DNA of 64,000 bases from Arthrobacter sp. NEB 688 (GTDB lineage Bacteria > Actinomycetota > Actinomycetes > Actinomycetales > Dermatophilaceae), in NCBI RefSeq assembly GCF_013201035.1, contig NZ_CP053707.1:3100001-3164000 (forward strand). The letters run 5' to 3'. The notes below the pieces were generated by a model. It saw only the letters and a list, made by a program, of their open reading frames with translations, did no database searches and was not told the DNA's origin. Shown piece by piece: positions 17,226 to 32,215 of this stretch; the stretch's first letter is position 1, and every line of letters begins with the position of its first letter. The position numbers were made by a program, and so were the translations under genes.

Positions 17226-18467
17226 ATGAGCGAGCGTCGCGTCGTCGTCACCGGACTCGGTGCCACCACGCCCCTCGGCGGCACGATCGCCGAGACGTGG
17301 GAGGGCATCCTCGCCGGACGGTCCGGGGCCAAGCCCCTGCCCCAGGAGATGCTCGACCGGTACGAGCTGCCGGTCCACTTCGCGTGCACCATCGCGCAGG
17401 ACCCGCTCGAGGTCCTCACGAAGGTGCAGGTCCGCCGGATGGACCCGAGCGCCCAGTACGCCGTCATCGCGTCGCTGGCCGCCATGGAGGACGCCGGCTC
17501 GCCCGAGGTCGACCCCGAGCGGCTCGGCGTGGCCATCGGCACCGGCATCGGTGGCGTGTGGACGCTGCTCGACCAGTGGGACAACCTGCGCGAGAAGGGT
17601 GTCCGCCGGGTCTTCCCGCTCGCGGTCCCGATGCTCATGCCCAACACCTCGGCCGGCAACGTGTCGCTGCTGCTCGGCGCCCGCGCCGGCGCGCACACCA
17701 CCGTCTCGGCCTGCGCCTCCGGCGCGGAGTCGATGGGCACCGGCTACGACATGATCCGCGACGGCCGTGCCGACATGGTCGTCGCCGGTGGCACCGAGTG
17801 CGCCACCCACCCCATCTGCTTCGCCGGCTTCAGCCAGATGCAGGCCCTCTCGACCCGCAACGACGACCCGGCCGCCGCCTCGCGCCCCTACGACACCGGC
17901 CGCGACGGCTTCGTCATGGGCGAGGGCGCCGCCGTCATGGTCCTCGAGGAGTACGAGCACGCGAAGGCCCGTGGCGCGCGCATCTACGCCGAGTTCGCCT
18001 CGATCGGGATGTCCGCCGACGCCCACCACATCACCGCGCCGGAGCCCGAGGGCGCCGGGGCCAGCCGCGCGATGCGCTCCGCCGTCGAGCGCGCCGGCCT
18101 GACCGCCGCCGACATCGTGCACATCAACGCCCACGCGACCTCGACGCCGGTCGGCGACGTGGCCGAGGCCAACGCCATCCGCCGCGCGTTCGGCGACGCG
18201 GTCGACGGGATGCCGGTCAGCGCCACCAAGTCGATGACCGGGCACCTGCTCGGCGCCGCCGGGGCGCTCGAGGGGCTGCTCACCGTGCTCGCCGTGCACC
18301 ACCGCACCGCGCCGGCCGCCATCAACATCGACGACCTCGACCCGGCGATCGACCTCGACGTCATCCGGGGCGAGCACCGCACGCTGCCCGACGGCGACAT
18401 CGCGGCGCTCAACAACTCCTTCGGGTTCGGCGGCCACAACGTCGCGCTCGTCGTCAAGAGCGTCTGA
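17226..18467 (+). CDS. fabF: beta-ketoacyl-ACP synthase II
   Basis: The 413-residue elongation condensing enzyme shows the catalytic Cys in TVSACASGAE, the two His in NAHATSTPVGD and TGHLLGAAGA, the active-site Lys just before the latter (ATKSMTG), and the Gly-rich C-terminal NNSFGFGGHN. AAGGAG precedes the ATG at 17226. It closes the type II fatty-acid operon and is followed by a perfect terminator palindrome. Confidence 0.96.
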   Translation: MSERRVVVTGLGATTPLGGTIAETWEGILAGRSGAKPLPQEMLDRYELPVHFACTIAQDPLEVLTKVQVRRMDPSAQYAVIASLAAMEDAGSPEVDPERLGVAIGTGIGGVWTLLDQWDNLREKGVRRVFPLAVPMLMPNTSAGNVSLLLGARAGAHTTVSACASGAESMGTGYDMIRDGRADMVVAGGTECATHPICFAGFSQMQALSTRNDDPAAASRPYDTGRDGFVMGEGAAVMVLEEYEHAKARGARIYAEFASIGMSADAHHITAPEPEGAGASRAMRSAVERAGLTAADIVHINAHATSTPVGDVAEANAIRRAFGDAVDGMPVSATKSMTGHLLGAAGALEGLLTVLAVHHRTAPAAINIDDLDPAIDLDVIRGEHRTLPDGDIAALNNSFGFGGHNVALVVKSV

Positions 18468-18478
18468 GACCACGCGCG

Positions 18479-18510
18479 ACGCCCCCGGACCCACGTGGGT
18501 CCGGGGGCGT
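18479..18510 (+). terminator. terminator of the fatty-acid operon
   Basis: A perfect 32-base palindrome, ACGCCCCCGGACCCAC and its complement, begins 12 bases after fabF. The stem is at least 14 bp with an ACGT loop. CACGCG and CGCGTG just outside could extend it. Confidence 0.8.
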
Positions 18511-18530
18511 TCGCGTGCTCCCCGGTGCCG

Positions 18531-18578
18531 GCTACACCGCAGGAGCTGCTGCTGTGGCGACCCTTCCTGCGGTGTAGC
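18531..18578. repeat. 14-bp inverted repeat with 20-base loop at the convergent gene ends
   Basis: Arms GCTACACCGCAGGA (18531-18544) and TCCTGCGGTGTAGC (18565-18578) match perfectly. The element lies between the fabF terminator and the stop of the DUF3145 gene. It may end transcription from the minus strand. Because the fabF terminator is already present, it might instead be a dispersed REP-like palindrome. Confidence 0.6.
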
Positions 18579-18590
18579 GCGCGGCGAGCG

Positions 18591-19103
18591 TCAGCCGACC
18601 TTGTGCAGCCAGCGGACGGGCGCGCCCTCGCCGGCGTAGCGGAACGGCTCGAGCTCCTCGTCCCACTCGACGCCGAGCATCTCCTCGATCATGTCCTGCA
18701 CCGCCTCGGGGCTGCCCTGCGCGAGGACGACGACCTCGCGCAGCCGGTCCTCGTTGACGACGGCGTCGCCGTTCGCCGAGGTCCAGGTGTGGTGGATGCC
18801 CAGGCGCGGCGTGTGCGACCAGCGCGAGCCGTCGGAGCCGGGGCTCGGCTCCTCGGTCACCTCGTAGCGCAGGTGCTCCCAGCCGCGCAGCGCCGACGCG
18901 ATGCGGGCGCCGCTGCCGGCCTCGCCGGCCCAGCTGAGCTCGGCCCGGACCATCCCCGGAGCGGCCGGCTGCGCGGTCCAGTCCATGCTGACGCGGACGC
19001 CGAGGACTCCCTCGATCGCCCAGATGACGTGCGGGCACAACGCCTTGGGCGTGGAGTGGACGTAGACCACTCCACGCGTGGTGGCGCGCTGCATCGCTGA
19101 CAT
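18591..19103 (-). CDS. DUF3145 family protein
   Basis: The 170-residue protein begins MSAMQRATTRGVVYVHSTPKALCPHVIWAIEGVLG and matches DUF3145, a family conserved in actinomycetes and often found beside fabF. It is soluble and acidic in its C-terminal half (QDMIEEMLGVEWDEELEPF). AAGGAG lies before the ATG at 19103. Its function is unknown. Adjacency to the fatty-acid operon suggests a link with envelope lipid synthesis, but it is transcribed in the opposite direction. Confidence 0.8.
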   Translation of the reverse strand: MSAMQRATTRGVVYVHSTPKALCPHVIWAIEGVLGVRVSMDWTAQPAAPGMVRAELSWAGEAGSGARIASALRGWEHLRYEVTEEPSPGSDGSRWSHTPRLGIHHTWTSANGDAVVNEDRLREVVVLAQGSPEAVQDMIEEMLGVEWDEELEPFRYAGEGAPVRWLHKVG

Positions 19104-19232
19104 CCCGGTCTCCTTGTCGTGCGGTGGACGTCTTCCCCAACGTCGCCGTTCGATCCGTGAGCCGGTCGTGTCGTGCGTGTGCGGGCACGCCACGCGTGCC
19201 GGTTGTCTGCAGCACAGTCTGCCCCACACGAC

Positions 19233-19273
19233 GCACCCGCACCAGAGATCACACGGATTCGTGGTGCGGGTGC
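19233..19273 (-). terminator. hairpin after the gene at 19294-19878
   Basis: Arms GCACCCGCACCA (19233-19244) and TGGTGCGGGTGC (19262-19273) form a 12-bp stem with a 17-base loop, about 20 bases past the stop of the minus-strand gene. Confidence 0.55.
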
Positions 19274-19293
19274 CTCGGGGGCGCCGCCGCAGG

Positions 19294-19878
19294 TCAGACG
19301 GTCGCGGCGCCCGTCGTCGTCGCGCTGCTCGTGCCGTTGGCGTCGCTCGGGTCGCCCGACCCGGTGCCCGTCCCGCCGTCGGGACCCTGTCCGTCGGCTC
19401 CCGGCATCCCGCCCGGGCCGCCGTGCTCCTCGGTGCCGGTGACGGCGAACTGCGCCGAGACGAGGACGTCGACGCGGCCGGCGTCGGAGGTGACGGTCAC
19501 CTCGTAGCTGCCGTCGGACAGGGCCCGGACGCCGCTGACGGTGCCGCCGTCGACGGCGCCCTGCGCGGCCGCCACCGCCTTGCTCGCGGCCTCGGCGGTC
19601 AGCGTCCCGCCGGCGTCCATCATCCCGCCGCGGCCACCGCCGGGCATGCCGCCGCCGGCCTGGCCGCCCCCGGCCTGACCGCCGCCGGGGAGGGTGCCGC
19701 TCGTCGAGCCGCCGCCGTTCGCGTCGGTGCCGGTGCCCGCCGAGGCGGACGCCGACGGGGTGGCGGTGCTCACCGTGGTGTCGGCGGCGCCGGCGAGCGA
19801 CGCGCCGGTCAGGCCGAGCGCGACCGCGGCGGCGATGCCGACGCCGCCGATCGCGAGGGTGCGGGTCTGTCGGTCCAT
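19294..19878 (-). CDS. exported Gly-rich protein with PepSY-like domain
   Basis: The 194-residue product starts MDRQTRTLAIGG with an uncleaved-anchor or signal helix (residues ~8-32, ending SLAGAAD). A Ser/Thr/Gly-rich linker with Met-Pro-Gly-Gly repeats follows (residues ~40-90). Then comes a small folded region (LTAEAASKAVAAAQGAV...GSYEVTVTSDAGRVDVLVS) that resembles a PepSY-type domain. The tail is again low complexity. A GGAG-like site precedes the ATG at 19878. It is probably an envelope protein. No partner gene is adjacent; the PepSY assignment is a weak inference from the helix-then-strands pattern. Confidence 0.6.
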   Translation of the reverse strand: MDRQTRTLAIGGVGIAAAVALGLTGASLAGAADTTVSTATPSASASAGTGTDANGGGSTSGTLPGGGQAGGGQAGGGMPGGGRGGMMDAGGTLTAEAASKAVAAAQGAVDGGTVSGVRALSDGSYEVTVTSDAGRVDVLVSAQFAVTGTEEHGGPGGMPGADGQGPDGGTGTGSGDPSDANGTSSATTTGAATV

Positions 19879-20044
19879 GGGGTGCTCCTTCGTCGGGGGG
19901 ACCATCTGCACCCACGGTCCCGGGCGGGCCTGTGCCGCACCTGTCGCCGACACCGGTCGCCCCTGTGACCCCTCCGGCCCCGCGGTCGGCCGGCGGCGCC
20001 GCGGCGCTAGGCTCGGCGCACCCGTGGCCGGCGCGCCACGGCGC

Positions 20045-20121
20045 GGGGCGTTAGCTCAGTCGGTCAGAGCAGCGGACTCATAATCCGTCGGTCGTCGGTT
20101 CAAGCCCGACACGCCCCACCA
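20045..20121 (+). tRNA. tRNA-Met (CAT), elongator type
   Basis: The acceptor stem GGGGCGT pairs with ACGCCCC. The D-arm is GCTC/GAGC, the anticodon stem GCGGA/TCCGT encloses CTCATAA, and the T-arm GTCGG-TTCAAGC-CCGAC is intact. The anticodon CAT is at 20079-20081. CCA is encoded (20119-20121). The first pair is G-C, so it is not the initiator (which has an unpaired first position). A lysidine-modified tRNA-Ile2 also has CAT, but the sequence resembles actinobacterial elongator Met. Confidence 0.93.
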
Positions 20122-20351
20122 CCCCGCCGCCCGGGGCGTCCTCTCGCGGCGCGCCGAGGCCACGACGTCGTCGCGCACCAGGCCGAGCGTGCTGCCGGAC
20201 CCATGGCCTCCACCACCGTCGCCGCGTCGAGCAGCGTGCGCACGACGACGTCGGACGGGGCCGAGAGACCGGTCGGCGGCTCGGCCAGGACCCGCCGCGT
20301 GCACCAGGGGCGGTCGGCACGCACCGGGGCACCGCGCACACCGATCGTCAC
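20100..20351 (-). other. possible remnant ORF beside tRNA-Met
   Basis: On the minus strand a GTG at 20351 opens an 83-codon frame (TIGVRGAPVRADRPWCTRRVLAEP...) with high-GC3, coding-like composition up to about 20200. It then seems to lose its frame; a protein-like continuation (LGLVRDDVVASARRE) lies in another frame, and the stop falls inside the tRNA antisense. It could be a decayed or frameshifted gene. No family was recognised. Together with the 20352-20592 region this makes a stretch without an intact gene. Confidence 0.25.
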
Positions 20352-20383
20352 CCGTTCGACCTCCCCGAGGCCGCCGGACCGGC

Positions 20384-20413
20384 TTGACAGAGATACCCCT
20401 GGGGGTATTAACT
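20384..20413 (+). promoter_or_regulatory. promoter with CsoR/CstR-like operator
   Basis: TTGACA at 20384-20389 is a consensus -35, with TATTAA (20406-20411) or TTAACT (20408-20413) as -10. The palindrome ATACCCCTGGGGGTAT (20393-20408) fills the spacer. Sites of this A-T plus C4/G4 type are bound by CsoR-family repressors, including the persulfide sensor CstR, which controls such sulfur operons. The repressor gene is not in the window. The transcript would have a ~170-base leader before the first gene at 20593. Confidence 0.75.
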
Positions 20414-20592
20414 GAGTGCAGTGTTCCGCGAGGGGCATCCCCGCCTGCGCGACGGGCGACAAGGGCACGACCGCGGCCCACCGGCCTCCCCGACCGGGGG
20501 GGTCACCACGTCTCCGGCGGCGCCCGATCGCACACCGTTCCCGACGCCGTCGTTCCACCCCTCGCGCCCGTCCCACCGTCGAAGGAGCTCCC

Positions 20593-21987
20593 GTGAGCCA
20601 CACCCGGTCCCGAGTGCCCGTCATCGTCCCGATCGACACCCCCAGCCTGGGCGACCGCTCATACCTGGCCCACGACGGCCGGGTGGCGGTCGTGGTCGAC
20701 CCGCAGCGCGACATCGACCGCGTCCTCGACCTCGCCACCGCCGCCGGGGTGCGGATCACGCACGTCTTCGAGACCCACGTCCACAACGACTACGTCACCG
20801 GCGGCCTCGCGCTGGCCCGCCAGACCGGCGCGGCCTACCACGTCAACGCCGCGGACCAGGTGGCCTTCGAGCACGTCCCCGTCACGGACGGCGACGTCGT
20901 CGAGGTCTCCCCGACGATGCGGGTGCGCGTCATCGCGACCCCGGGGCACACCCTGACCCACCTCGCCTACGCGCTGGAGACCTCCGGCGAGGACGGTGAC
21001 ACCGTCGGCGTCTTCACCGGCGGCTCGCTGCTCTTCGGGGCGACCGGCCGGCCCGATCTGCTCGGCGACGAGCACACCGACGCGCTGGTCCACCACCAGT
21101 TCGCCTCCGCGCACCGGCTCGCCGACGAGCTGCCGGAGCACACGCACGTCCTGCCCACGCACGGCTTCGGGTCGTTCTGCTCGGCCGGTTCCACCGGCGG
21201 GAGCACGGAGTCGACGATCGGCGTCGAGAAGCGGCAGAACCCGGCGCTGACCGACGACGAGGCGACCTGGGTGGCCGCCACCCTGGCCGGGCTGGACGCG
21301 TACCCGGCCTACTACGTCCACATGGCCCCGGCGAACAGCGCCGGACCCGACGCCCCGGACCTCACCGCCCCTCAGGAGGCCGACAAGGCCACGCTGGCCG
21401 CGCGCCTCGCCGCCGGCGAGTGGGTCGTCGACCTGCGCACCCGCACGGCCTTCGCCGCCGGTCACGTCCCCCGCACCCTCAACATCGGCCTGGACGGCCA
21501 GTTCGCGACGTACCTCGGCTGGCTCATCCCGTGGGGTACCCCCCTCACCCTCCTCGGGGAGGACGCCGCGCAGGTCGCCGACGCCCAGCGCGAGCTCGTG
21601 CGCATCGGGATCGACCACCTCGCCGGGGCCGCCACCGGCTCCCCCGCCGACTGGACCGACGGGCCGCTCGCCGCCTTCCCCCGCGCCGTCTTCGCCGACC
21701 TCGCCCAGGTCCGCCACCACCGCCGGGTCGGCGTGCTGGACGTCCGCCGCGCCTCGGAGTTCGCCGAGCAGCACATCGCCGGCGCGACCAACATCCCCCT
21801 GCACGAGCTCCTCGCCCGTCTGGGCGAGGTGCCTGCCGGCGAGGTGTGGGTCCACTGCGCGGGCGGTTACCGTGCCTCGATCGCCGCCTCGATCCTCGCC
21901 GCGCACGGCCACCGGGTCGTCGCCGTCGACGACAGCTTCGGCGAGCAGGCCGCCCGCTCCGGCCTGCCCCTCATCACCGCCGCCTGA
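20593..21987 (+). CDS. persulfide dioxygenase fused to two rhodanese domains
   Basis: The 464-residue protein has an ETHE1/Blh-like metallo-beta-lactamase domain (residues ~1-245) with the metal motif THVHNDYVTG, and metal-ligand His in TPGHTLTH and PTHGFGS. A first rhodanese domain (~265-345) has lost the catalytic Cys (its loop reads TLLGEDAAQV). A second rhodanese domain (~370-464) keeps it in VWVHCAGGYRAS. The enzyme should oxidise glutathione-like or mycothiol/bacillithiol-type persulfide to sulfite, with sulfur transfer to the active rhodanese. GTG at 20593 follows GAAGGAG. The frame is open upstream but starts inside the leader. The TauE-type exporter downstream could remove the sulfite. 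Confidence 0.9.
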   Translation: MSHTRSRVPVIVPIDTPSLGDRSYLAHDGRVAVVVDPQRDIDRVLDLATAAGVRITHVFETHVHNDYVTGGLALARQTGAAYHVNAADQVAFEHVPVTDGDVVEVSPTMRVRVIATPGHTLTHLAYALETSGEDGDTVGVFTGGSLLFGATGRPDLLGDEHTDALVHHQFASAHRLADELPEHTHVLPTHGFGSFCSAGSTGGSTESTIGVEKRQNPALTDDEATWVAATLAGLDAYPAYYVHMAPANSAGPDAPDLTAPQEADKATLAARLAAGEWVVDLRTRTAFAAGHVPRTLNIGLDGQFATYLGWLIPWGTPLTLLGEDAAQVADAQRELVRIGIDHLAGAATGSPADWTDGPLAAFPRAVFADLAQVRHHRRVGVLDVRRASEFAEQHIAGATNIPLHELLARLGEVPAGEVWVHCAGGYRASIAASILAAHGHRVVAVDDSFGEQAARSGLPLITAA

Positions 21988-22019
21988 CCCCCACCCACGC
22001 CCGACCGAAGGAGACCTCC

Positions 22020-22172
22020 ATGTGCCGTCCCGCCACCTGCCCCACCTGCGGCCTCACCACCTGGGCCGGATGCGGCCAGCACGCCGAGCAGGTGATGGCC
22101 GGCGTCCCCGCCGGCGCCCGCTGCACCTGCCACGGCTCGACCGACCCGACCCCTCCGACCACGAGCCGCTGA
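22020..22172 (+). CDS. small Cys-rich (zinc-ribbon-like) protein
   Basis: The 50-residue product starts MCRPATCPTCGLTTWAGCGQH and contains seven cysteines (C2, C7, C10, C18 and a CTCH motif near residue 38) that could bind Zn or react with sulfane sulfur. GAAGGAG precedes the ATG, 32 bases after the dioxygenase stop. Similar peptides are common in actinomycetes beside rhodanese genes. Its exact role is not known. Confidence 0.75.
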   Translation: MCRPATCPTCGLTTWAGCGQHAEQVMAGVPAGARCTCHGSTDPTPPTTSR

Positions 22173-22335
22173 CCGCCCCGGCCCACCGGACCGGGCGCCC
22201 GGAACCCCCTCCCGACGGCGCCCTCCGTGGCGACCACGCCGCTCTGCGGCACGGTCGCCACGACCGCCGGGGGCAGGTGAACCTCATCCCACCCCGAGGC
22301 CCTGCCCCCGGCACCTCGACCCAAGGAGCCCTACC

Positions 22336-23148
22336 GTGTCCGCCCTCGTCCTCCCCGTCGGACTGCTCATCGGTCTGTCCCTCGGCGCCCTCGGCGGCGG
22401 CGGATCGATCCTCACCGTGCCGGCGCTGGTCTACCTCCTCGGCCAGGACCCGCACCACGCCACGACCAGCTCCCTGCTCATCGTCGGGGCCACCTCGCTC
22501 ATCGCGCTCGTCCCGCACGCCCGCCGGGGGAACGTCCGCTTCGGGCAGGGCCTGGCCTTCGGCGCGCTGGGGACGGCCGGGTCGGTCGCCGGGACCGCCG
22601 CGGGCGCCCACATCCCCGCGGCCGTGCTGCTTGCGGCGTTCGCCGTGCTCATGCTCCTCGTCGCCGGCCTCATGCTGCGCCGCTCCCTCCGGCCCGACCC
22701 CACCGGTGGCGACCCCGCCGGCGGCCCCCACGACCCGATGCTCACCCTGCGCCCCCTGCGGTGCGCCTGCCCCCGGGTGGTCAGGCTCGTCGTCACCGCG
22801 ACCCTCGTGGGCCTGCTCACCGGGTTCTTCGGGGTAGGCGGTGGGTTCGCCCTCGTCCCCGCGCTCATCCTCGTGCTGCAGCTCCCGATGCCCGTGGCCG
22901 TCGGCACCAGCCTCCTGGTCATCGCCGTCAACAGCGCCACCGCGCTCGCCGCCCGCGTGACGACGACGACCGCCGAGCAGGACTGGCCCCTCATCGCCAC
23001 CTTCACGGCCGTCGCCGTCGTCGGCAGCCTCGTCGGCGGACGGATCAGCACGCTCGTCACCCCCCGCCACCTCACCCGCGCCTTCGCCCTCCTCCTGACG
23101 GCCGTCGCCCTCTACACCGGCGCTCGCAGCGCCGTCGTGCTCGGCTGA
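22336..23148 (+). CDS. TauE/SafE-family sulfite exporter-like membrane protein
   Basis: The 270-residue integral membrane protein has about eight hydrophobic segments in two halves. Each half has the family's Gly-rich motif: GLSLGALGGGGSILTVPAL near the start and GLLTGFFGVGGGFALVPAL near residue 165. The GTG at 22336 has AAGGAG upstream. It is third in the sulfur operon and likely exports sulfite, thiosulfate or another sulfur compound made by the dioxygenase. The 163 bases before it hold no gene. Confidence 0.88.
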   Translation: MSALVLPVGLLIGLSLGALGGGGSILTVPALVYLLGQDPHHATTSSLLIVGATSLIALVPHARRGNVRFGQGLAFGALGTAGSVAGTAAGAHIPAAVLLAAFAVLMLLVAGLMLRRSLRPDPTGGDPAGGPHDPMLTLRPLRCACPRVVRLVVTATLVGLLTGFFGVGGGFALVPALILVLQLPMPVAVGTSLLVIAVNSATALAARVTTTTAEQDWPLIATFTAVAVVGSLVGGRISTLVTPRHLTRAFALLLTAVALYTGARSAVVLG

Positions 23149-23314
23149 CGCCCGACGCGCTGCGTCACCCTGCCGACCTCCCGCCGTCGGACCTTGCCAG
23201 TGGGCGCCAGCTCCTCAATCATGGGCGCACGCGCGATGCGGGCCAAAACGGTTCGCCGGCAGCTGGAGCCGTGAGCTCGCCTCCCGCACGGAGGACATCC
23301 CAGAAGGAGGCTTC

Positions 23315-24328
23315 GTGGTTTCAGTCGCGGCTTGGTCGGCACCTCAGGACGGGGTGCCTCGACGGTTGGTGGCGGCACCTCCGCGCAGCGAGGCTGCGCT
23401 CGAGGCGTGGGTGAGAGCGGATCCCCACCTCGTGCGGGACGGACTGGTCGTCGTCGCGCAGCAGCTGATCTTCCCCACGAAGGAACGCCTCGACCTCCTG
23501 TGCATCGAGAACCGCTCCCGCTGGCTGATCGTCGAGCTCAAGCGCGACCGGATGGCCCGCGAGGTCGCCGCTCAAGCCCTCGACTACGTCAGCCTTCTCA
23601 CGGAGATGTCCACGGAGGACCTGGACGGACGGCTCGCTCCTCATCTGGCGGGTGCGAGCGAGGACGTCCGCGAGCTCGTGCGAGGGCTGCTGGACTCCGA
23701 GGACCCGGACAGCCCCCGTGAGGTCTCGGCGGTGGTGGTGGGCACGTCGGCCGACGAGGCTCTGTTGCGGATCACCCGCCACCTCAGCGAGCAGTACGGC
23801 GTCCCACTCTCCGTGGTCGAGCTGCAAGGGTTCGAGACCCCGTCGGGTGACCACCTCATCCTCCGCGAGGAGACCGGTACCGATCCCACCGCGGATGCTC
23901 GGGCCGATCAGCCGGGCGGCGCCACGAGCGAGGAGGAGCGGTGGGCCCGGGTCCAGTCGTACGCGGACGCGACAGGCTTCGGACGTGCTCTCGCGGAGGT
24001 GCGCCGGATCCTGCAGGACTCCCCGGTCTATCTGCGTCCCTACACGCGGTCGGTCATGGTCGCGCCCCCGAGCAACCGCTCGCGCTACCTGGCCGTCTTC
24101 GGCTTCTCGGGACCGAGGAGGTCGCGCGGTGCGGCTGCCCTGAGCTACGAGATCGAGCCGTTCCTCGAGTTCTACCCGAGCCTCGACTCACCGCGGGTGA
24201 CGGCAGCTCTCGGTCCGACGCACGCCGACATCGGACCGGACCAGCTCGTCGCGTTCGCGGGCCGTCTCGCCGACCTCGTAGCCGGCGACTCGGCCCCTCC
24301 GGACGGCACGGAACTGCCGGCGCCCTGA
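23315..24328 (+). CDS. PD-(D/E)XK nuclease-like protein with NucS/DUF91-type domain
   Basis: The 337-residue protein starts at a GTG preceded by AGAAGGAGG. Residues ~20-110 carry the nuclease core: RLDLLCIENRSRWLIVELKR, in which D..(E)xK supplies the metal ligands, followed by AAQALDYVSLL, as in NucS C-terminal and DUF91-like domains. The C-terminal ~180 residues have an unknown fold, with FGFSGPRRSR and two strands ending in SLDSPRVTAALGPTH. Codons are clearly less GC3-biased than in neighbours (TCA, GCT, CCT, TTG, CGA), suggesting recent acquisition. It stands alone. It may be a stand-alone defence or repair nuclease; no partner gene is seen. Confidence 0.65.
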   Translation: MVSVAAWSAPQDGVPRRLVAAPPRSEAALEAWVRADPHLVRDGLVVVAQQLIFPTKERLDLLCIENRSRWLIVELKRDRMAREVAAQALDYVSLLTEMSTEDLDGRLAPHLAGASEDVRELVRGLLDSEDPDSPREVSAVVVGTSADEALLRITRHLSEQYGVPLSVVELQGFETPSGDHLILREETGTDPTADARADQPGGATSEEERWARVQSYADATGFGRALAEVRRILQDSPVYLRPYTRSVMVAPPSNRSRYLAVFGFSGPRRSRGAAALSYEIEPFLEFYPSLDSPRVTAALGPTHADIGPDQLVAFAGRLADLVAGDSAPPDGTELPAP

Positions 24329-24370
24329 CCGCTCCGGGCCCCTCACGCGTCGACGAGGCATGATGCCCTC

Positions 24371-24538
24371 GTGATCCTGCTCGTCATCGCCGTGCTGCTC
24401 GTCGTCGCCGCCGTCCTCGCCTCGCGCGGCCGGCGTGGTGGACCGTCGTCCCGGATGCCGCGCGTCCTCGCCGGGGTGGTCCTGCTCGGCGTCGTCGTCT
24501 GGGTGGTCGTCATCGCCGCGCAGGCCGGCACCGCCTGA
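24371..24538 (+). CDS. small two-helix membrane protein
   Basis: A GTG at 24371 opens a 55-codon frame. The product has two hydrophobic helices (MILLVIAVLLVVAAVLA, and VLAGVVLLGVVVWVVVIAA) joined by a short basic loop SRGRRGGPSSRMPR. GC3 is strong. It is convergent with the FAD-oxidoreductase gene and follows the nuclease gene by ~40 bases. No Shine-Dalgarno sequence is clear. Function unknown. Confidence 0.5.
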   Translation: MILLVIAVLLVVAAVLASRGRRGGPSSRMPRVLAGVVLLGVVVWVVVIAAQAGTA

Positions 24539-24587
24539 GGCGCGCCGCCTGCCGGGGTGACGTCGCCGTGCCGCGGTCGCCGGAAGG

Positions 24588-25994
24588 TCAGCTGTCGAAG
24601 CCGATGCCGACGGCGTCCATCGCCCTGAGCCACACGTTGCGGCGCCCGGTGCGGTCCTCGGCGGCCAGGCTCGCGCGGGTCAGCCGCACCCCGAGGCCGC
24701 GGATCGGCTCCGGCGGGAACGGCAGCGGCTTGCGGCGCACCATCCCGAGCCGGGTCACCTCGGTGTCGCGACCGTGGACGAGGTCGAGGGCCACGCGTGC
24801 GCCGAACCGCGTCGAGGCCACCCCGAGGCCGGTGTAGCCGACGGCGTAGGCGAGCCGGCCGCCCATCGCCGTGCCGAAGACCGGGGTGAAGCGCGAGGTC
24901 GTGTCGATGACGCCGGCCCAGCGGTGGGTGAAGCGGACGCCCTCGAGCTGCGGGAAGATCCCGAGGAAGTGGCGGGCCAGGAGGTCGTGCGACGCCGACT
25001 GCTCCAGCCGCGGGTCGATGCGCCCCGGGAAGTGGTAGTTGGCGTCGTAGCCGCCGAAGAGGACGCGGTCGTCGAGGGTGCGCCGGTAGTAGTGGAACTG
25101 GTTGCCGGCGTCGGTCAGGCCCTCGCGACCCTCCCAGCCGACCGCCGCGAGCTGCGCCGCCGAGAGCGGCTCGGTCATGAGCACGTGGTCGTAGACGGGC
25201 AGCGTGTAGAGCGCGAGCCGCTTGAGGACCCCGCGGAACGCGCCCGTGCCGAGCACCACCCGACGGCCGTGGACGCTCCCCCACTCGGTGCCGACGCGCA
25301 CGCCGTCGCCGTCCTGCTCGAGGCCGGTGACCGCCGTGTCCTCGTGCAGCCGCACCCCGAGCCGCTCCGCCGCCGCGGCGAGCCCCCACACGAGCCGGGC
25401 CGGGTCGACGAGGCCGACGGTCGGGTCGTGCATCCCCGCGAGGTAGCGCGGCGAGTCGACGCGCGCGCGGGCCTCGGCGCCGCTGAGGAGCTCGGTCGGG
25501 ACGCCGTGCGCGCGGTGCAGCGCGTGCGCCTCGCGGACGGTCTCGACCTGCCGCTCGTCGAGGGCGAGGGTCAGCTCGCCGGGCACGTGGAGGTCGCAGT
25601 CGATGCCGTACCGCTGCACCGCCTCGGCCAGCCCGGCGAAGTTCTCGGCCCCCAGCCGCTCCAGCGTCGGCACCTCGTCCGGCCAGCAGGCGACGCCCTG
25701 CCCGAGCCCGTGCGTGAGCGACGGCGAGACGAACCCGCCGTTGCGTCCGGACGCCGCGATGCCGAGCCGGCCGCGCTCGACGAGCACGACCTCGGCCGAC
25801 GGGTCGTCCTCCTTGGCCTGGACGGCGGCCCACAGCCCGGTGAACCCCCCACCGACGACGACGAGGTCCGCGCGGTGCCCGTGGCCCGTGAGCGGCGGGC
25901 GTGCCGCCGGGCGCAGCGACGGGCGGTCGGTCCAGAACACGTCCGGGACGGCGTCGGCGAGGGAGGCGCGCGCGGCACCCGAGGAGACGGACAT
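24588..25994 (-). CDS. FAD-dependent oxidoreductase (DAO/PuuB-GlpD-like)
   Basis: The ~468-residue protein has the N-terminal dinucleotide fold after ~45 residues: ADLVVVGGGFTGLWAAVQAK, then EVVLVERGRLGIAASGRNGGFV, typical of D-amino-acid-oxidase-like amine oxidases. Family members with the ASGRNGGF block oxidise gamma-glutamyl-putrescine, sarcosine and similar amines. The C-terminal FAD segment is GYTGLGVASTRFG. Candidate starts are ATGs at 25994, 26003 and 26006; none has a clear Shine-Dalgarno. The cupin gene next door is divergent, as it is for many such oxidases. The substrate cannot be told. Confidence 0.85.
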   Translation of the reverse strand: MSVSSGAARASLADAVPDVFWTDRPSLRPAARPPLTGHGHRADLVVVGGGFTGLWAAVQAKEDDPSAEVVLVERGRLGIAASGRNGGFVSPSLTHGLGQGVACWPDEVPTLERLGAENFAGLAEAVQRYGIDCDLHVPGELTLALDERQVETVREAHALHRAHGVPTELLSGAEARARVDSPRYLAGMHDPTVGLVDPARLVWGLAAAAERLGVRLHEDTAVTGLEQDGDGVRVGTEWGSVHGRRVVLGTGAFRGVLKRLALYTLPVYDHVLMTEPLSAAQLAAVGWEGREGLTDAGNQFHYYRRTLDDRVLFGGYDANYHFPGRIDPRLEQSASHDLLARHFLGIFPQLEGVRFTHRWAGVIDTTSRFTPVFGTAMGGRLAYAVGYTGLGVASTRFGARVALDLVHGRDTEVTRLGMVRRKPLPFPPEPIRGLGVRLTRASLAAEDRTGRRNVWLRAMDAVGIGFDS

Positions 25995-26135
25995 GCCGAG
26001 CATCATGCCCGAGCGGCCCACCTCGGGGCGAGCACCCGTCCACGGGATCCGCCGCCCCGCACCTCCCACCACGCCGGATTTCCCCGGTCGCGGGCCCTCC
26101 TGGCTTCTCGATCCGTCGCGTGGCACGATCCGGGG

Positions 26136-26471
26136 ATGCCCCAGCGCCTCCTCGCCGACGACGCGACCCGCCTCCCCCTCGAGCACGAGCCGCTGCCGGC
26201 CGACGAGGTGCTCGACGGGGCGCCGACCACCGCCGTGCGCACCCTCGGCACGGTCGGCGACGTCGAGGTCGGCGTCTGGGAGATGAGCGCCGGCACCGCC
26301 CGCGACACCGAGGTGGACGAGGTCTTCGTCGTCCTGTCCGGTTCGGGCACAGTCGAGTTCGAGGACGGCGAGCGCATCCTGCTGGCGCCCGGGACGGTCG
26401 TGCGGCTGAGCGTCGGCGAGCGCACGCGGTGGACGGTCGAGGAGCCCCTGCGCAAGGTGTGGATCGCCTGA
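26136..26471 (+). CDS. cupin-domain protein (DUF861-like)
   Basis: The 111-residue protein is a single beta-barrel cupin. The motifs are WEMSAGTARDTEVDEVFVVLSGSG and LLAPGTVVRLSVGERTRWTVEE. It has few metal-binding His, as in DUF861 ethanolamine-type cupins. It is divergent from the FAD-dependent amine-oxidase-like gene, a common pairing. It is probably a small-molecule-binding accessory protein or isomerase. There is no Shine-Dalgarno at the ATG. Confidence 0.75.
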   Translation: MPQRLLADDATRLPLEHEPLPADEVLDGAPTTAVRTLGTVGDVEVGVWEMSAGTARDTEVDEVFVVLSGSGTVEFEDGERILLAPGTVVRLSVGERTRWTVEEPLRKVWIA

Positions 26472-26591
26472 GGGAGCCGGCGACGGCAGCAGGTGCGGCG
26501 AGGTCTCGGAACGGTCACAATGCGCCCCATCCGCCCCACGGGACGACCCTGACGACCACCCGCCGCCGGGGCATCGCTAGGTTTCCTGTGC

Positions 26592-27332
<741 letters not shown>

Positions 27333-27395
27333 CCGGGGCGGCCGACCGGGCCACCCGACGACCACGAGTCGACCAACACCAGGAGGAACACCGAC

Positions 27396-28223
27396 ATGAA
27401 GAGCACCCGGATCGGACTCGCCGCGGCAGCGGCGGTCCTCGCGCTCACGGCGAGCGCCTGTGGCTCGGACGACGGCGGGGAGGGCTCCGGCGGCGACGGC
27501 ATCAAGATCGGCATCAAGTTCGACCAGCCCGGTCTCGGCCTGAAGAAGGGCAGCGACTACGCGGGGATGGACGTCGACGTCGCGAAGTACGTGGCCAAGC
27601 AGCTCGGCCACGACGAGGGCGACATCCAGTGGGTCCAGGCCCCGAGCGCCCAGCGCGAGAACCTGCTGAGCACCGGCCAGGTCGACATGATCGTCGCGAC
27701 GTACTCGATCACCGACGAGCGCAAGACGAAGGTCTCCTTCGCCGGGCCGTACTTCGTCGCCGGCCAGGACCTCCTCGTGCGCGCCGACGACTCCTCGATC
27801 ACCGGCCCGGACAGCCTCGACGGCAAGAAGCTGTGCTCGGTCACCGGCTCGACGTCGGCGCAGAAGGTCAAGGACGAGGTCGCCGGGGTCAACCTGCGCG
27901 AGTTCGGCACCTACTCCGAGTGCGTCACCGCCCTGGTCTCCGGCGGCGTCGACGCGCTGACGACCGACGACACGATCCTCGCCGGCTACGCCGCGCAGGA
28001 CCAGTACAAGGGCAAGCTCAAGGTCGTCGGCCAGCCGTTCTCGCAGGAGAACTACGGCATCGGCCTCAAGAAGGGCGACACCGCCACCTGCCAGAAGGTC
28101 ACCGACGCCATCACGAAGATGGTGACCGACGGCGACTGGCAGACGATCGTCGACGCGAACCTGGGCCCGGCGGGCTACAAGCCGCCGGCGGGCAACCCGC
28201 CCACCCCGGACGCCTGCTCCTGA
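27396..28223 (+). CDS. gluB: glutamate-type ABC transporter, substrate-binding lipoprotein
   Basis: The 275-residue protein has a signal peptide with lipobox LTASAC (Cys at about residue 22), then an acidic Gly/Ser linker and a type II periplasmic-binding fold (IKIGIKFDQPGLGLK, GMDVDVAKYVAKQLG, DMIVATYSITDERK). GGAGG lies before the ATG. It delivers the amino acid to GluC/GluD. A stable hairpin follows the gene. Confidence 0.92.
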   Translation: MKSTRIGLAAAAAVLALTASACGSDDGGEGSGGDGIKIGIKFDQPGLGLKKGSDYAGMDVDVAKYVAKQLGHDEGDIQWVQAPSAQRENLLSTGQVDMIVATYSITDERKTKVSFAGPYFVAGQDLLVRADDSSITGPDSLDGKKLCSVTGSTSAQKVKDEVAGVNLREFGTYSECVTALVSGGVDALTTDDTILAGYAAQDQYKGKLKVVGQPFSQENYGIGLKKGDTATCQKVTDAITKMVTDGDWQTIVDANLGPAGYKPPAGNPPTPDACS

Positions 28224-28244
28224 CCGCAGCCCACCGGCTCCCGC

Positions 28245-28275
28245 GCACCGCCCGCCCCCCGAGGGCGGGCGGTGC
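28245..28275 (+). terminator. intra-operon hairpin after gluB
   Basis: GCACCGCCCGCCC and its perfect complement flank CCCGA, 22 bases after the gluB stop. It probably raises the amount of binding protein over permeases by partial termination or 3'-end protection. Confidence 0.7.
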
Positions 28276-28314
28276 CGGGACCGGGGGCCACCGCCCCGGC
28301 CGAAAGGTGAGGTG

Positions 28315-28980
28315 ATGGGCGACATCATCGGCAACTACGACATCCTCGGTGCCTTCTGGGTGACGATCCAGCTCTCGGTGCTCTCCGCGCTCGGGGCCCT
28401 CGTCGTCGGCACCGTCCTCGCGGTCTTCCGCGTCTCCCCCGTGCGCGTCCTGCGCGCCCTCGGGGCCTTCTACGTCAACGTCCTGCGCAACACGCCGCTC
28501 ACGCTGCTCATGGTCTTCAGCATCCTCGGGATGAGCATCATCCTCGGGCTGCAGCTGAGCGAGGACCAGGCCCGCGACTCCTACTGGTGGGCGGTCATCA
28601 TGCTGTCGGTCTACCACGCGGCCTTCGTCTGCGAGGCGATCCGCAGCGGCGTCAACACCATCCCCGCCGGGCAGGCCGAGGCCGCCCGCTCGATCGGCCT
28701 GACCTTCGGCCAGTCGATGCGCGAGGTGCTGCTGCCGCAGGCGTTCCGCGGGGCGATCGCGCCGCTCGGCTCGACGCTCATCGCGCTCATCAAGAACACG
28801 ACGGTCGCCGCGGTCATCCTCGGCACCGCCGAGGCCGCCGGCCTCCTCGCGCAGATCACGGAGAACGAGGGCGCGAGCCTGCCGACGTTCTTCGTCTTCG
28901 CCCTCGGCTTCGTCGTCCTCACCCTGCCGATCGGCCTCGCGGTCACCTCCCTCTCCCGACGTCTGGCGGTCAAGCGATGA
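28315..28980 (+). CDS. gluC: glutamate-type ABC transporter, permease 1
   Basis: The 221-residue permease has about five membrane helices and the EAA-type loop (RSGVNTIPAGQAEAARSIGLTFGQSMREVLLPQA) that docks to the ATPase. The ATG at 28315, with AAAGG 7 bases upstream, is preferred to the adjacent GTG at 28312. The stop overlaps the next ATG. Confidence 0.92.
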   Translation: MGDIIGNYDILGAFWVTIQLSVLSALGALVVGTVLAVFRVSPVRVLRALGAFYVNVLRNTPLTLLMVFSILGMSIILGLQLSEDQARDSYWWAVIMLSVYHAAFVCEAIRSGVNTIPAGQAEAARSIGLTFGQSMREVLLPQAFRGAIAPLGSTLIALIKNTTVAAVILGTAEAAGLLAQITENEGASLPTFFVFALGFVVLTLPIGLAVTSLSRRLAVKR

Positions 28981-29879
28981 GCAGCGACAGCGTCCTCTTC
29001 GACGCCCCCGGCCCGCGGGCCCGCCTGCGGCACGGCGTCCTCACCGGCATCGGGGTGCTCCTCGTCGTCGCCGGCGCCTGGGTGGTCTACCGCAAGATGT
29101 CCGAGGCGGGGCAGCTCGACCCGGCCCTCTGGACCCCGTTCGTCACCGACCCCGCCGTGTGGAGCGAGTACCTGCTGCCCGGCTTCTGGGAGACGATCAA
29201 GGCCGCCGCCGCGTCCGTCGTCCTCGCCGGCGTCTACGGCCTGGTCTTCGGGATGGGGCGCCTGTCGCACGTGCGCGCCGTCCGCTGGGTCAGCGGTGTC
29301 GTCGTCGAGTTCTTCCGGTCCGTGCCGGTGCTCCTCATGATGGTCTTCCTCTTCTTCGGCTACTTCGCCACCGCGACGTGGCTGCCGAACCAGTACGCCC
29401 CGATGGCCGCCGTCGTCGTCGGCCTGACCCTCTACAACGGCTCGGTCATCGCCGAGCTCGTGCGTTCGGGCGTGCACTCCCTGCCGGCCGGGCAGGCCGA
29501 GGCCGGGCTCTCCATCGGCCTCTCCCCCGGCCAGACCCTGCGCAGCATCCAGCTGCCGCAGGCGCTGCGGGCGATGCTCCCGGCGCTCGTCGGCCAGCTC
29601 GTCGTGGTGCTCAAGGACACCGCGCTCGGCACCGTCGTCCTCTACCCGGAGCTGCTGACGGCGGCCAAGACCCTCGGCTCGGCGTACGCCAACACGCTGC
29701 AGGCGTACATCGTCGCGGCGGCGGTGTTCGTCCTCGTCAACTACGCGCTGACCGTCCTCGCCGGGAGGGTCGAGCGCTGGCTCGCCCGTCGCGGCCGCTC
29801 GGCCGGCGGGCCGCGCACGGCCGCGGTGCCCGTCGAGACCGTGCCCACCGCCGACGCGACGAGCAGCGGCGCCCGCTGA
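28977..29879 (+). CDS. gluD: glutamate-type ABC transporter, permease 2
   Basis: The 300-residue permease has an N-terminal helix after a short polar tail, then the same core with the loop RSGVHSLPAGQAEAGLSIGLSPGQTLRSIQLPQA. The ATGA overlap couples it to gluC. A Ser/Thr/Ala-rich cytoplasmic tail of ~35 residues ends the protein. A long hairpin follows. Confidence 0.92.
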   Translation: MSSDSVLFDAPGPRARLRHGVLTGIGVLLVVAGAWVVYRKMSEAGQLDPALWTPFVTDPAVWSEYLLPGFWETIKAAAASVVLAGVYGLVFGMGRLSHVRAVRWVSGVVVEFFRSVPVLLMMVFLFFGYFATATWLPNQYAPMAAVVVGLTLYNGSVIAELVRSGVHSLPAGQAEAGLSIGLSPGQTLRSIQLPQALRAMLPALVGQLVVVLKDTALGTVVLYPELLTAAKTLGSAYANTLQAYIVAAAVFVLVNYALTVLAGRVERWLARRGRSAGGPRTAAVPVETVPTADATSSGAR

Positions 29880-29887
29880 CCGCCCTC

Positions 29888-29929
29888 GACGGAACGGCCG
29901 TCGTCCCCCGGGACGGCGGCCGTTCCGTC
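29888..29929. terminator. bidirectional terminator between gluD and the LamG-protein gene
   Basis: GACGGAACGGCCG (29888-29900) pairs with CGGCCGTTCCGTC (29917-29929), and the inner CGTCCC/GGGACG pairs further, giving a stem of nearly 20 bp. It lies exactly between two convergent stops and overlaps the stop of the minus-strand gene. Confidence 0.75.
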
Positions 29930-31298
29930 AGGGCACGACGGGCGGGCGGGTGTTCCAGCTCGTCTCGTCGGCCCAGTTGGTGTCCGTGTCGAACCAGTTC
30001 GGCCCACCGTCCGACGCCAGCCACACCTCGTTGCCGTAGGAGCGCCAGTACCGGGTCGGGGCGTCGTAGGCCGACCACGAGGTGCCCTCGCCGTTGTTGC
30101 CGACGTGCGGGCAGAACGTCGCCGACTGGTCCCACGCCGCCGTCCCGTCCGGCACCTCGATGACCATCCGCATCGCGCTGGTGTGCCGGATGAGCCGGTC
30201 CGGGTAGTTGGTCGACCGGAACGAGAAGCACCGCGAGTCCGCGAGCCCGGACTCGACCTTCCAGGTCGAGTCGTACGTCCCGACGGAGTCACTCATCGAG
30301 ATGCTGCTGACGTACAGGGCGAAGGCCCAGTGACGCAGGTACATGGTGCTGTCGCCGGCCGTGGCCCGGGCGAAGGACCAGCGGCCCGTCTTCGGGTAGC
30401 CGGCGCGGCCGGCGGCGTAGTGCAGCAGCACGTCGCTCGGCGCGAGCGCGGAGGTGTGGTAGGAGGCGAAGGCGAGGCTGCCCGCGAGGGCGGTCGTCGA
30501 GGTCTCCCCCGGCCAGCGCGTGGCGCTGCTCCCGTGGCCGCTGTTGCCGATCCGCCAGTACTGCGCGAGCCCGGAGCTCGTCGTCACGGCGCTGTCGGAG
30601 GCGACGAGGACCCCGTCGACGTAGAGGCGCAGCCCGGGCTGGGGGTCGGTGGCGGTCGCCTGGGTCACGGCCACGTGGTGCCAGACGTCGTCGGTGTAGG
30701 TCCGGGGGCCCGTCACGGTCTTGACCGTCGTGCCCCCGGCGAGCACCCCGGCGACGAGGGTCCCGGACGAGCTGAGGTACAGCCGCCGGTCGACACCCGT
30801 CCCGCTGTCGCCCGTGGCCGAGGAGGCGAAGGCCAGCAGGTCGCCGGCACCGCTCGTCCCGCGGAACCACACCTCCTCGCTCCAGCGGGTGGCCGCGGCC
30901 AGCGTCGCGGAGGGCCCCGCCACCATCCCCGTCGAGCCGTCGAGGGTGACCGCGCGCGCCTTGTCGCGCGCGCACGGCCCGGTGGCCTGGTAGGTCACGC
31001 CCTTGCTCGAGTACGTGCCGTTGCGCGGTGAGCCGCTCGCGCCAGAGGTGTCGGAGGCAGTCGTGCCCGAGGAGTCGGCGAACGGATAGGTGACGAGGGC
31101 CGCCGCGCCGGCCCGACCCGACGTCGCTGCTGCCTGGCAGGTGAAGCTCGGGTTCGCGGTGACGCTCGGTCGGTGGACCGTGCCGGCGGTGTACGCACCG
31201 GAGGCGGTCGGGACACCGCACCAGGCGAGCACGCCGACGACCCCGGCGAGGGCGGTGGCCAGGAGGCTGCCGACCGCCCGCAGCGGAAGGCCGGTCAT
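29928..31298 (-). CDS. secreted LamG/concanavalin-like domain protein
   Basis: The 456-residue protein has a signal helix (residues ~7-30, followed by TASGAYTAGTV). Residues ~70-290 form a LamG/laminin-G-like lectin fold (RWSEEVWFRGTSGAGDLLAFASS, DVWHHVAVTQATA, LRLYVDGVLV, YWRIGNSG, GSLAFASYHTSALAPSDVLLHY). The rest contains Trp-rich repeats and a few Cys. The ATG overlaps the stop of the signal-peptidase gene (ATGA), so this protein is probably processed by that peptidase. It may act as an adhesin. No sortase motif is present. Confidence 0.75.
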   Translation of the reverse strand: MTGLPLRAVGSLLATALAGVVGVLAWCGVPTASGAYTAGTVHRPSVTANPSFTCQAAATSGRAGAAALVTYPFADSSGTTASDTSGASGSPRNGTYSSKGVTYQATGPCARDKARAVTLDGSTGMVAGPSATLAAATRWSEEVWFRGTSGAGDLLAFASSATGDSGTGVDRRLYLSSSGTLVAGVLAGGTTVKTVTGPRTYTDDVWHHVAVTQATATDPQPGLRLYVDGVLVASDSAVTTSSGLAQYWRIGNSGHGSSATRWPGETSTTALAGSLAFASYHTSALAPSDVLLHYAAGRAGYPKTGRWSFARATAGDSTMYLRHWAFALYVSSISMSDSVGTYDSTWKVESGLADSRCFSFRSTNYPDRLIRHTSAMRMVIEVPDGTAAWDQSATFCPHVGNNGEGTSWSAYDAPTRYWRSYGNEVWLASDGGPNWFDTDTNWADETSWNTRPPVVP

Positions 31299-32215
31299 CC
31301 CGTCACCGGGTGCGCCGCCCGCAGCACGGCGGCCCGCGCCGGCCGCTCCCCCGCCGCGCGCCGGTGCCCGGCGAGGAGCGTCCAGAGCACGGGGAGGAGG
31401 CACAGCGCCCAGAGGAGCAGCCACGCGGTCCAGCCGAGGTCGGGCCGGGCGTGCAGGCGGACGTGTCCTCCCGCACCGGCGGCCCGGACGACGAGCTCTC
31501 CGCGTTCGCCGTACGAGAGGTGGCTCGGCCCGGAGACGGCCCGCCCGAGGTGCTCGGTCACCGTGACCGGCAGCATCCCCGTCGAGACGAACGAGACCCG
31601 CGAGCCGCCCGCGCCGGTGCCGGTGGGCGAGCTGACGGCGAGCTCCGTGACGCCGACGAAGGGCCGCAGCCGCAGCACCGTCACTGCGTAGAGCAGCGAC
31701 CAGGCGACGAGCCGGACCGGACCCCGGACCTCCGGGCGCAGCCAGAGCCGGGTCAGCAGGAGGACGAGCAGCCCGCCGACACCGAGCAGGGGGACGGCGC
31801 GGACGGCGTAGCCCCATCCCGGCAGGAGCGCGACCGCGCGCCCCACCAGCCGCTCGTCGGTCACGGGGTGAGGGTCGTCGCTGCCGTTGAGGTCGCCCCG
31901 GGTCACGAGGGTCCGGCCGCTCCCGGACGGCTCGACCGCGACCACGCGGTGCACGACGGTCAGGCCGGACCCGTCCTTGGGCGAGAACGCCACGACGTCC
32001 CCGCGCTGCACCGACGCCGTGCCCGCCGGTCGCGTGACGACCAGCGTGCCCACCGGGGCGGCCGCCCCCATCGACGGGGAGGACACGACGAACAGGCGCA
32101 TACCGCCCCACAGGGGCAGGGCGGTCAGGAGGAGGACGGCGAGCGCCACGCCGGCCCCCACCACCCCTGCGGCGGGCCGGCCGGCGCCCGTCAGCTCCCG
32201 GCGGTGAAGAGCCAC
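31295..32215 (-). CDS. SipW-like signal peptidase I (S26B, ER/archaeal type)
   Basis: The 306-residue protein has an N-terminal membrane helix (residues ~18-40) and then the Ser motif VVSSPSMGAAAPVGTLV. The second catalytic residue is His in TVVHRVVAVE, in place of the bacterial Lys, and TRGDLNGSDDPHPV follows. These are the SipW/ER-type features. Two or three more membrane segments follow. The GTG start at 32215 lies inside the end of the TasA-like gene (25-base overlap). In Bacillus, SipW processes TasA; the same pairing here implies it processes its two neighbours. Confidence 0.85.
   Translation of the reverse strand: MALHRRELTGAGRPAAGVVGAGVALAVLLLTALPLWGGMRLFVVSSPSMGAAAPVGTLVVTRPAGTASVQRGDVVAFSPKDGSGLTVVHRVVAVEPSGSGRTLVTRGDLNGSDDPHPVTDERLVGRAVALLPGWGYAVRAVPLLGVGGLLVLLLTRLWLRPEVRGPVRLVAWSLLYAVTVLRLRPFVGVTELAVSSPTGTGAGGSRVSFVSTGMLPVTVTEHLGRAVSGPSHLSYGERGELVVRAAGAGGHVRLHARPDLGWTAWLLLWALCLLPVLWTLLAGHRRAAGERPARAAVLRAAHPVTG

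Follow-up and report, generated by a model that had tools for sequence, protein, structure and literature searches.

The 64,000-nucleotide stretch of Arthrobacter sp. NEB 688 analysed here (contig NZ_CP053707.1, positions 3,100,001 to 3,164,000; hereafter the window) raises the question of what a solitary nuclease-like gene, the open reading frame (ORF) at 23315–24328, does among genes of metabolism and transport. The original prediction had proposed an acquired single-gene defence nuclease. Our answer is similar: on sequence comparison, we put at roughly one in two the probability that the gene encodes a horizontally acquired, stand-alone DNA endonuclease, most likely restricting incoming phage or plasmid DNA. 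Acquisition as a single gene is well supported. That the product is a defence nuclease is the best inference from the match of its N-terminal part to PDC-S11, a candidate for single-gene phage defence, and from the type I restriction context of its relatives.

The N-terminal half was expected to hold a PD-(D/E)XK core composed of a D and an ExK motif. The Pfam profile NucS_C (PF01939) matches amino acids (aa) 25–102 of the protein with 26.9 bits (cut-off 24), and the expected core is intact: D60, E74 and K76 (the latter two in the sequence E74-L-K76), together with E26 and Q87, occupy five columns that are invariant in an alignment of 44 sequences, and the D-x-[E/Q]xK pattern is kept in 80 of 80 relatives. 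An AlphaFold2 model built with the 44 sequences has block-mean values of the predicted local distance difference test (pLDDT) of 75–96 up to aa 190, and of 29–59 afterwards. Among the solved structures that were re-aligned with VIA to the N-terminal model (range 25–173), the P. abyssi NucS chain 2vld_B gave a Z of 12.9 (root-mean-square deviation 2.2, 108 residues), and the EndoMS structures 5gke and 5gkj gave Z values of 12.5 (deviation 2.7, 113 residues) and 11.6, respectively. The next-best solved structure had a Z of 8.7, and the lower rows include SduA, Can2, and HamA. NucS/EndoMS chains were also the sole solved-structure matches of the nuclease model in Foldseek at E ≤ 0.001. When the family profile was compared with the PDB, NucS 2vld alone was found at E ≤ 0.01 (E 1.3e-5), the D60 and E74-L-K76 columns falling on a D and on ELK of NucS. 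The case that the N-terminal half is a NucS/EndoMS-type catalytic domain of the PD-(D/E)XK class, its key residues all in place, is strong, in sequence as in the model, and catalysis is predicted.

Of the defence families compared, PDC-S11 is the closest. The PADLOC model (PDLC04916) aligned to aa 5–217 of the window nuclease over positions 6–212 of its 358, with a score of 105.3 bits (E 8.5e-31); the likeness thus lies in the N-terminal ~200 aa, which include the catalytic residues. Seven relatives were scanned with the same model. Five scored 432–496 bits over their full length, while L131 and L123 scored 240–243 bits over their first ~205 aa. These two carry other C-termini; therefore, one nuclease head also occurs with different tails. 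The C-terminal domain that relatives share has the consensus W-N-G-x-D-W ... G-Y-V-G-V-G, which the window protein lacks. An EVE/PUA reader has been considered for that domain, with a Pfam EVE match in 1 of 16 members (E 0.032); its best match in the PDB is to Roquin-1 (E 0.096). Judged by its domains, the window nuclease is a variant of a known candidate family. SduA of Shedu, a single-gene defence system, may have the PD-(D/E)XK nuclease fold in common with it (VIA Z 8.1–8.3), but the window protein has no SduA_C match at E ≤ 1, and NucS is ahead of SduA by more than 4 Z units. PDC-S11 appears in surveys of defence systems, and of 10 P. aeruginosa strains carrying it, 90% resisted phage, which is a correlation (PMC10855318). 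A machine-learning screen found PD-(D/E)XK domains in 13 of 31 additional validated systems (PMC13092281), which makes a defence function plausible in general and says nothing on the window protein.

The C-terminal half had been described as a domain of unknown fold, and this description holds. The sole Pfam match, DUF6907, had an E of 0.42 and 11.6 bits (cut-off 26), and the structural models are of low confidence. Fold candidates from the single-sequence model were not used, its pLDDT being 63; they comprised a best Foldseek match at E 0.27, a Mediator chain at VIA Z 7.3, and frataxin and DUF1801-like chains at Z about 4–5. At a per-genome E ≤ 0.01, 21 of 394 genomes of the class, the own genome included, had a match to the C-terminal half, the best one outside the own genome reaching E 7.4e-5 (43% over 57 residues). 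Because about four matches are expected by chance at that threshold, and because stop codons interrupt 11 of the 20 non-own matches, most of these are taken as products of GC-rich frames; a true distant relative may be among them. Plasmids searched with the C-terminal half gave nothing at E ≤ 0.1, and hhalign of the window C-terminal domain against that of the relatives returned 0.13%. By profile and model comparison, then, the C-terminal domain differs from that of the relatives; nothing convincingly related to it was found, and its fold is not predicted with confidence.

The best surviving alternative is a special case of the defence reading: restriction that depends on modification (type IV-like), in which the C-terminal domain would read modified phage bases and direct the nuclease to them. 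A stand-alone gene without a methyltransferase is consistent with an enzyme of this type, but the C-terminal domain matches no known reader in sequence or, as far as a low-confidence model can tell, in fold, and we regard this special case as possible, though unlikely.

The acquisition of the gene is supported by its codon use, distribution, and surroundings. The fraction of G or C at third codon positions (GC3) is 0.849 in the nuclease gene, versus 0.967, 0.972, 0.976, 0.982, 0.983, and 0.985 in six neighbours with above-cut-off Pfam matches. Two neighbours from the same interval, encoding a rhodanese-domain protein (0.972) and a TauE permease (0.967), have ordinary values; the history of the nuclease gene therefore probably differs from theirs. 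A reading of the nuclease gene as a shadow ORF was rejected on its Shine-Dalgarno sequence (AGAAGGAGG), its Pfam match, and its conserved catalytic residues. A single promoter-like site was found within 23100–24700 (shuffle mean 0.0, standard deviation 0.2).

A full-length copy is present in 1 of 12 genus genomes, its own, and the gene is absent from 13 sister loci (tblastn, E ≤ 1). Two sister genomes, G005 and G006, have partial relatives at 31% identity elsewhere in the genome, both among type I restriction genes. Matches at E ≤ 0.001, the own genome included, were found in 27 of 186 genomes of the family, 17 of 396 of the order, and 20 of 396 of the phylum. Apart from the gene itself, none of these matches extends beyond aa 305; the longest match among the loci of sampled relatives reaches aa 309 at 26% identity. 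Plasmid matches came from 41 records, all below 60% identity and none attaining 80% coverage. Phage records searched by tblastn gave no match, and of 61 and 15 stretches from a pattern search of viral contigs and 123 from a single-protein search of genome contigs, none was confirmed.

The nuclease gene lies in a variable interval beside tRNA-Met (Table 1). The interval was compared in the seven genus genomes having both flanks on one contig (G002, G003, G005, G006, G007, G008, and G010; stretches L232–L238); G001, without a match to the oxidoreductase, and G004, G009, and G011, with flanks on separate contigs, stayed outside this comparison. In each of them, the match with the window ends at 20119–20122, at the 3' end of the tRNA (20121), and restarts at 24543–24588, the exception being the small ORF region kept within the G005 and G006 intervals. 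The sister intervals measure from ~3.3 kb (G007) to 16.1 kb (G005), compared with 4.5 kb in the window, and hold other genes. From their translations, we take these to include genes for a short-chain dehydrogenase, an amidase-like protein, and an FMN dehydrogenase (G002, G007), an ion channel (G003, G005, G010), galactofuranose and ABC-transport proteins (G005, G006, G008), and an IS30-like transposase (G002). With an atypical GC3, absence from the 11 further genomes of the genus, and a variable interval with sharp breaks, the acquisition of a single gene, as originally proposed, is well supported.

Table 1. Features of the nuclease gene and its surroundings (window coordinates)
Feature	Position	Strand	Basis or remark
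tRNA-Met (cat), interval edge	20045..20121	+	ARAGORN
Variable interval, tRNA-Met to FAD oxidoreductase	20122..24587		Homology breaks in 7/7 sister intervals
Rhodanese-domain protein, interval neighbour	20593..21987	+	PF00581
TauE/SafE sulfite exporter-type permease, upstream neighbour	22336..23148	+	PF01925
Segment unmatched in 13 compared sister loci (nuclease and its upstream region)	23150..24369	+	About 1.2 kb; G005 block ends at 23149, small ORF region starts at 24370
Promoter-like TTGCCA-17-AATCAT	23194..23222	+	Consensus scan; weak evidence
Shine-Dalgarno-like sequence, spaced 4 nt ahead of GTG	23302..23310	+	Sequence
Nuclease ORF, PD-(D/E)XK, 337 aa	23315..24328	+	GTG start at 23315, TGA end at 24328
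N-terminal NucS/EndoMS-type catalytic domain (predicted), aa 1-190	23315..23884	+	pLDDT; VIA structure match
Predicted catalytic D60 codon	23492..23494	+	Invariant in 44 sequences; aligned with a D of P. abyssi NucS
E74-L75-K76 codons (ExK motif)	23534..23542	+	Invariant in 44 sequences; aligned with ELK of P. abyssi NucS
C-terminal domain (~120 aa, about aa 203-326); low-confidence prediction of two helices, then four strands, then two more helices	23921..24292	+	Single-sequence model, pLDDT 63
Small ORF region common to G005 and G006	24370..24538	+	DNA identity 83% (G005), 72% (G006; to 24554)
FAD-dependent oxidoreductase, conserved right edge	24588..26015	-	PF01266; matches in 11/12 genus genomes, own included

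Several further features of the locus were observed. The rhodanese gene, whose product presumably also has a metallo-beta-lactamase part, and the TauE gene are carried as a block (20158–23149), which recurs on another contig of G005 at 91% identity, the match ending at 23149. In G005, the last ~45 nt of tRNA-Met (L238:116–192) are repeated ~1.2 kb downstream, at about L238:1359–1409 (51 bp, 98%), as after the integration of an element at the tRNA; similar partial matches occur in G004 and G009, among the matches listed. At 18514–18594 lies a dispersed ~65-bp repeat that contains an inverted repeat and that we take to be REP (repetitive extragenic palindromic)-like. More than 20 copies of it, in both orientations, are among the matches listed for G000 and G005, and it folds only mildly better than shuffled sequences (z −1.9).

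The same locus could be explained by a selfish or homing-type nuclease, or by cargo of a lost mobile element, of no benefit to the host. A single-gene unmatched segment with outlying GC3 in a tRNA-adjacent variable interval would be expected of such a gene, the partial tRNA-Met copy in G005 hints at earlier integration there, and a similar fold is predicted for a phage protein. However, the att search for a repeat of the tRNA end of at least 12 nt found none in window positions 18000–32000, no integrase was seen among the genes read, and restriction genes stand near half of the sampled relatives, which makes an origin of this kind improbable.

The relation to NucS/EndoMS (PF01939, NF003270) bears on another possible function. 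The catalytic domain fold and the D/E/K residues are alike, but the nuclease domain is C-terminal in NucS and N-terminal in the window protein, where it starts at about aa 20–25 without the preceding N-terminal DNA-binding domain described in PMC5290159. Against the full-length equivalog NF003270, the window protein scored 27.4 bits (cut-off 216). Another gene, located elsewhere in the same genome, has 144.8 bits to NucS_C and, scored on that profile alone, is taken as the housekeeping NucS of this organism; the window gene was rejected for that role. We also observed a further protein of the same genome, at L002:817–2505 (minus strand), which matches in the nuclease region and, by eye, has the W-N-G C-terminal domain. 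With NucS and a W-N-G-tailed relative encoded elsewhere, the window gene would be superfluous for repair and for the usual PDC-S11 role. Conservation at the same place across the genus with a housekeeping role, named in the original prediction as counter-evidence, was looked for, and the gene proved not to be conserved. Thus, although the closeness of the catalytic domain to NucS/EndoMS in sequence and structure and the mutation-avoidance function of NucS in Actinobacteria (PMC5290159) would suit a second, divergent NucS-like repair enzyme acting on mismatches or branched DNA and not on invaders, the low equivalog score, the missing preceding domain, the better NucS match elsewhere, and the lack of a copy in 11 relatives make it improbable.

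The inference of a defence function for the window nuclease draws on the genes that surround its distant relatives. Of 138 confirmed loci, 80 were sampled; the hsd profiles were seeded from one operon, and 14 of the 80 loci had less than 3 kb on one side. The fetched flanks of 40 loci contained one or more of hsdM, hsdS, and hsdR. The hsdS gene stood directly upstream of the nuclease gene in 31, and in 29 of these hsdR followed no more than 3 kb downstream (immediately in 21). This arrangement of hsdS followed by a NucS-like nuclease recurs in type I operons of many Actinobacteria (L155:7170–14398 and 30 more loci); titles and abstract openings of the literature searched do not name a NucS-like gene inside type I operons, and we do not claim that the arrangement is unpublished. 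A plasmid-borne relative in Kocuria adjoins a type I system, and one in Deinococcus has an SNF2-related gene on one side and a methyltransferase-S pair on the other.

Several results weigh against restriction of invading DNA as the function of the window nuclease. The gene is isolated, as had been noted: its six scanned flanking genes are metabolic or transport genes by Pfam, a PADLOC scan of ten window ORFs gave one match, to an oxidoreductase model, and left nine unmatched, and no recognised defence gene adjoins it. Half of the relatives' loci (40 of 80) have no Hsd gene. Moreover, the patterns used to find them derive from an alignment in which the other C-terminal architecture predominates, which biases the sample towards it, and the context may not transfer to the window gene. 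No HsdS was found in the window genome with PF01420, while the same search was positive in 9 of 14 genomes as a control; a type I restriction subunit reading was rejected for this genome. The best identities to relatives, 31–35%, are confined to the N-terminal part, and the window protein is unmatched after position 212 of the PDC-S11 profile, whose C-terminal domain it lacks. Among viral predicted structures, a single one matched at E ≤ 0.001, and it is the best: Gp54 of Bacillus phage G (Foldseek E 6.8e-8). Since this phage protein shares the fold of the nuclease head, the head is not limited to host defence. As to codon use, and not function, 49 automatically picked ORFs have a GC3 of 0.90 ± 0.09, with 11 of them below the nuclease gene; as this crude set admitted shadow ORFs, the lower GC3 bias claimed for the gene is clear against real genes only.

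If the window nuclease is a restricting endonuclease, D60, E74, and K76 would coordinate a divalent metal ion for DNA hydrolysis, and the enzyme may work as a dimer, as NucS does. The C-terminal domain, which would occupy the place where relatives hold a different one, would do the targeting or sensing and distinguish foreign or altered DNA from that of the host, and the outcome would be cutting of the invading DNA. A bolder and doubtful extension is that NucS-type heads form a modular defence toolkit, in which one nuclease head is combined with various sensor tails, either in type I operons (hsdM-hsdS-nuclease-hsdR) or alone; the window protein, with a tail of an undescribed kind, might then restrict DNA on its own by a new principle of recognition.

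The sharply bounded interval on one side of tRNA-Met is a site of gene gain and loss in these actinobacteria. If the nuclease found there is protective, it would bring to a widespread family of candidate defence nucleases a member that stands alone and has a new C-terminal module, and what the exchangeable tails of NucS-type nucleases recognise would become testable.
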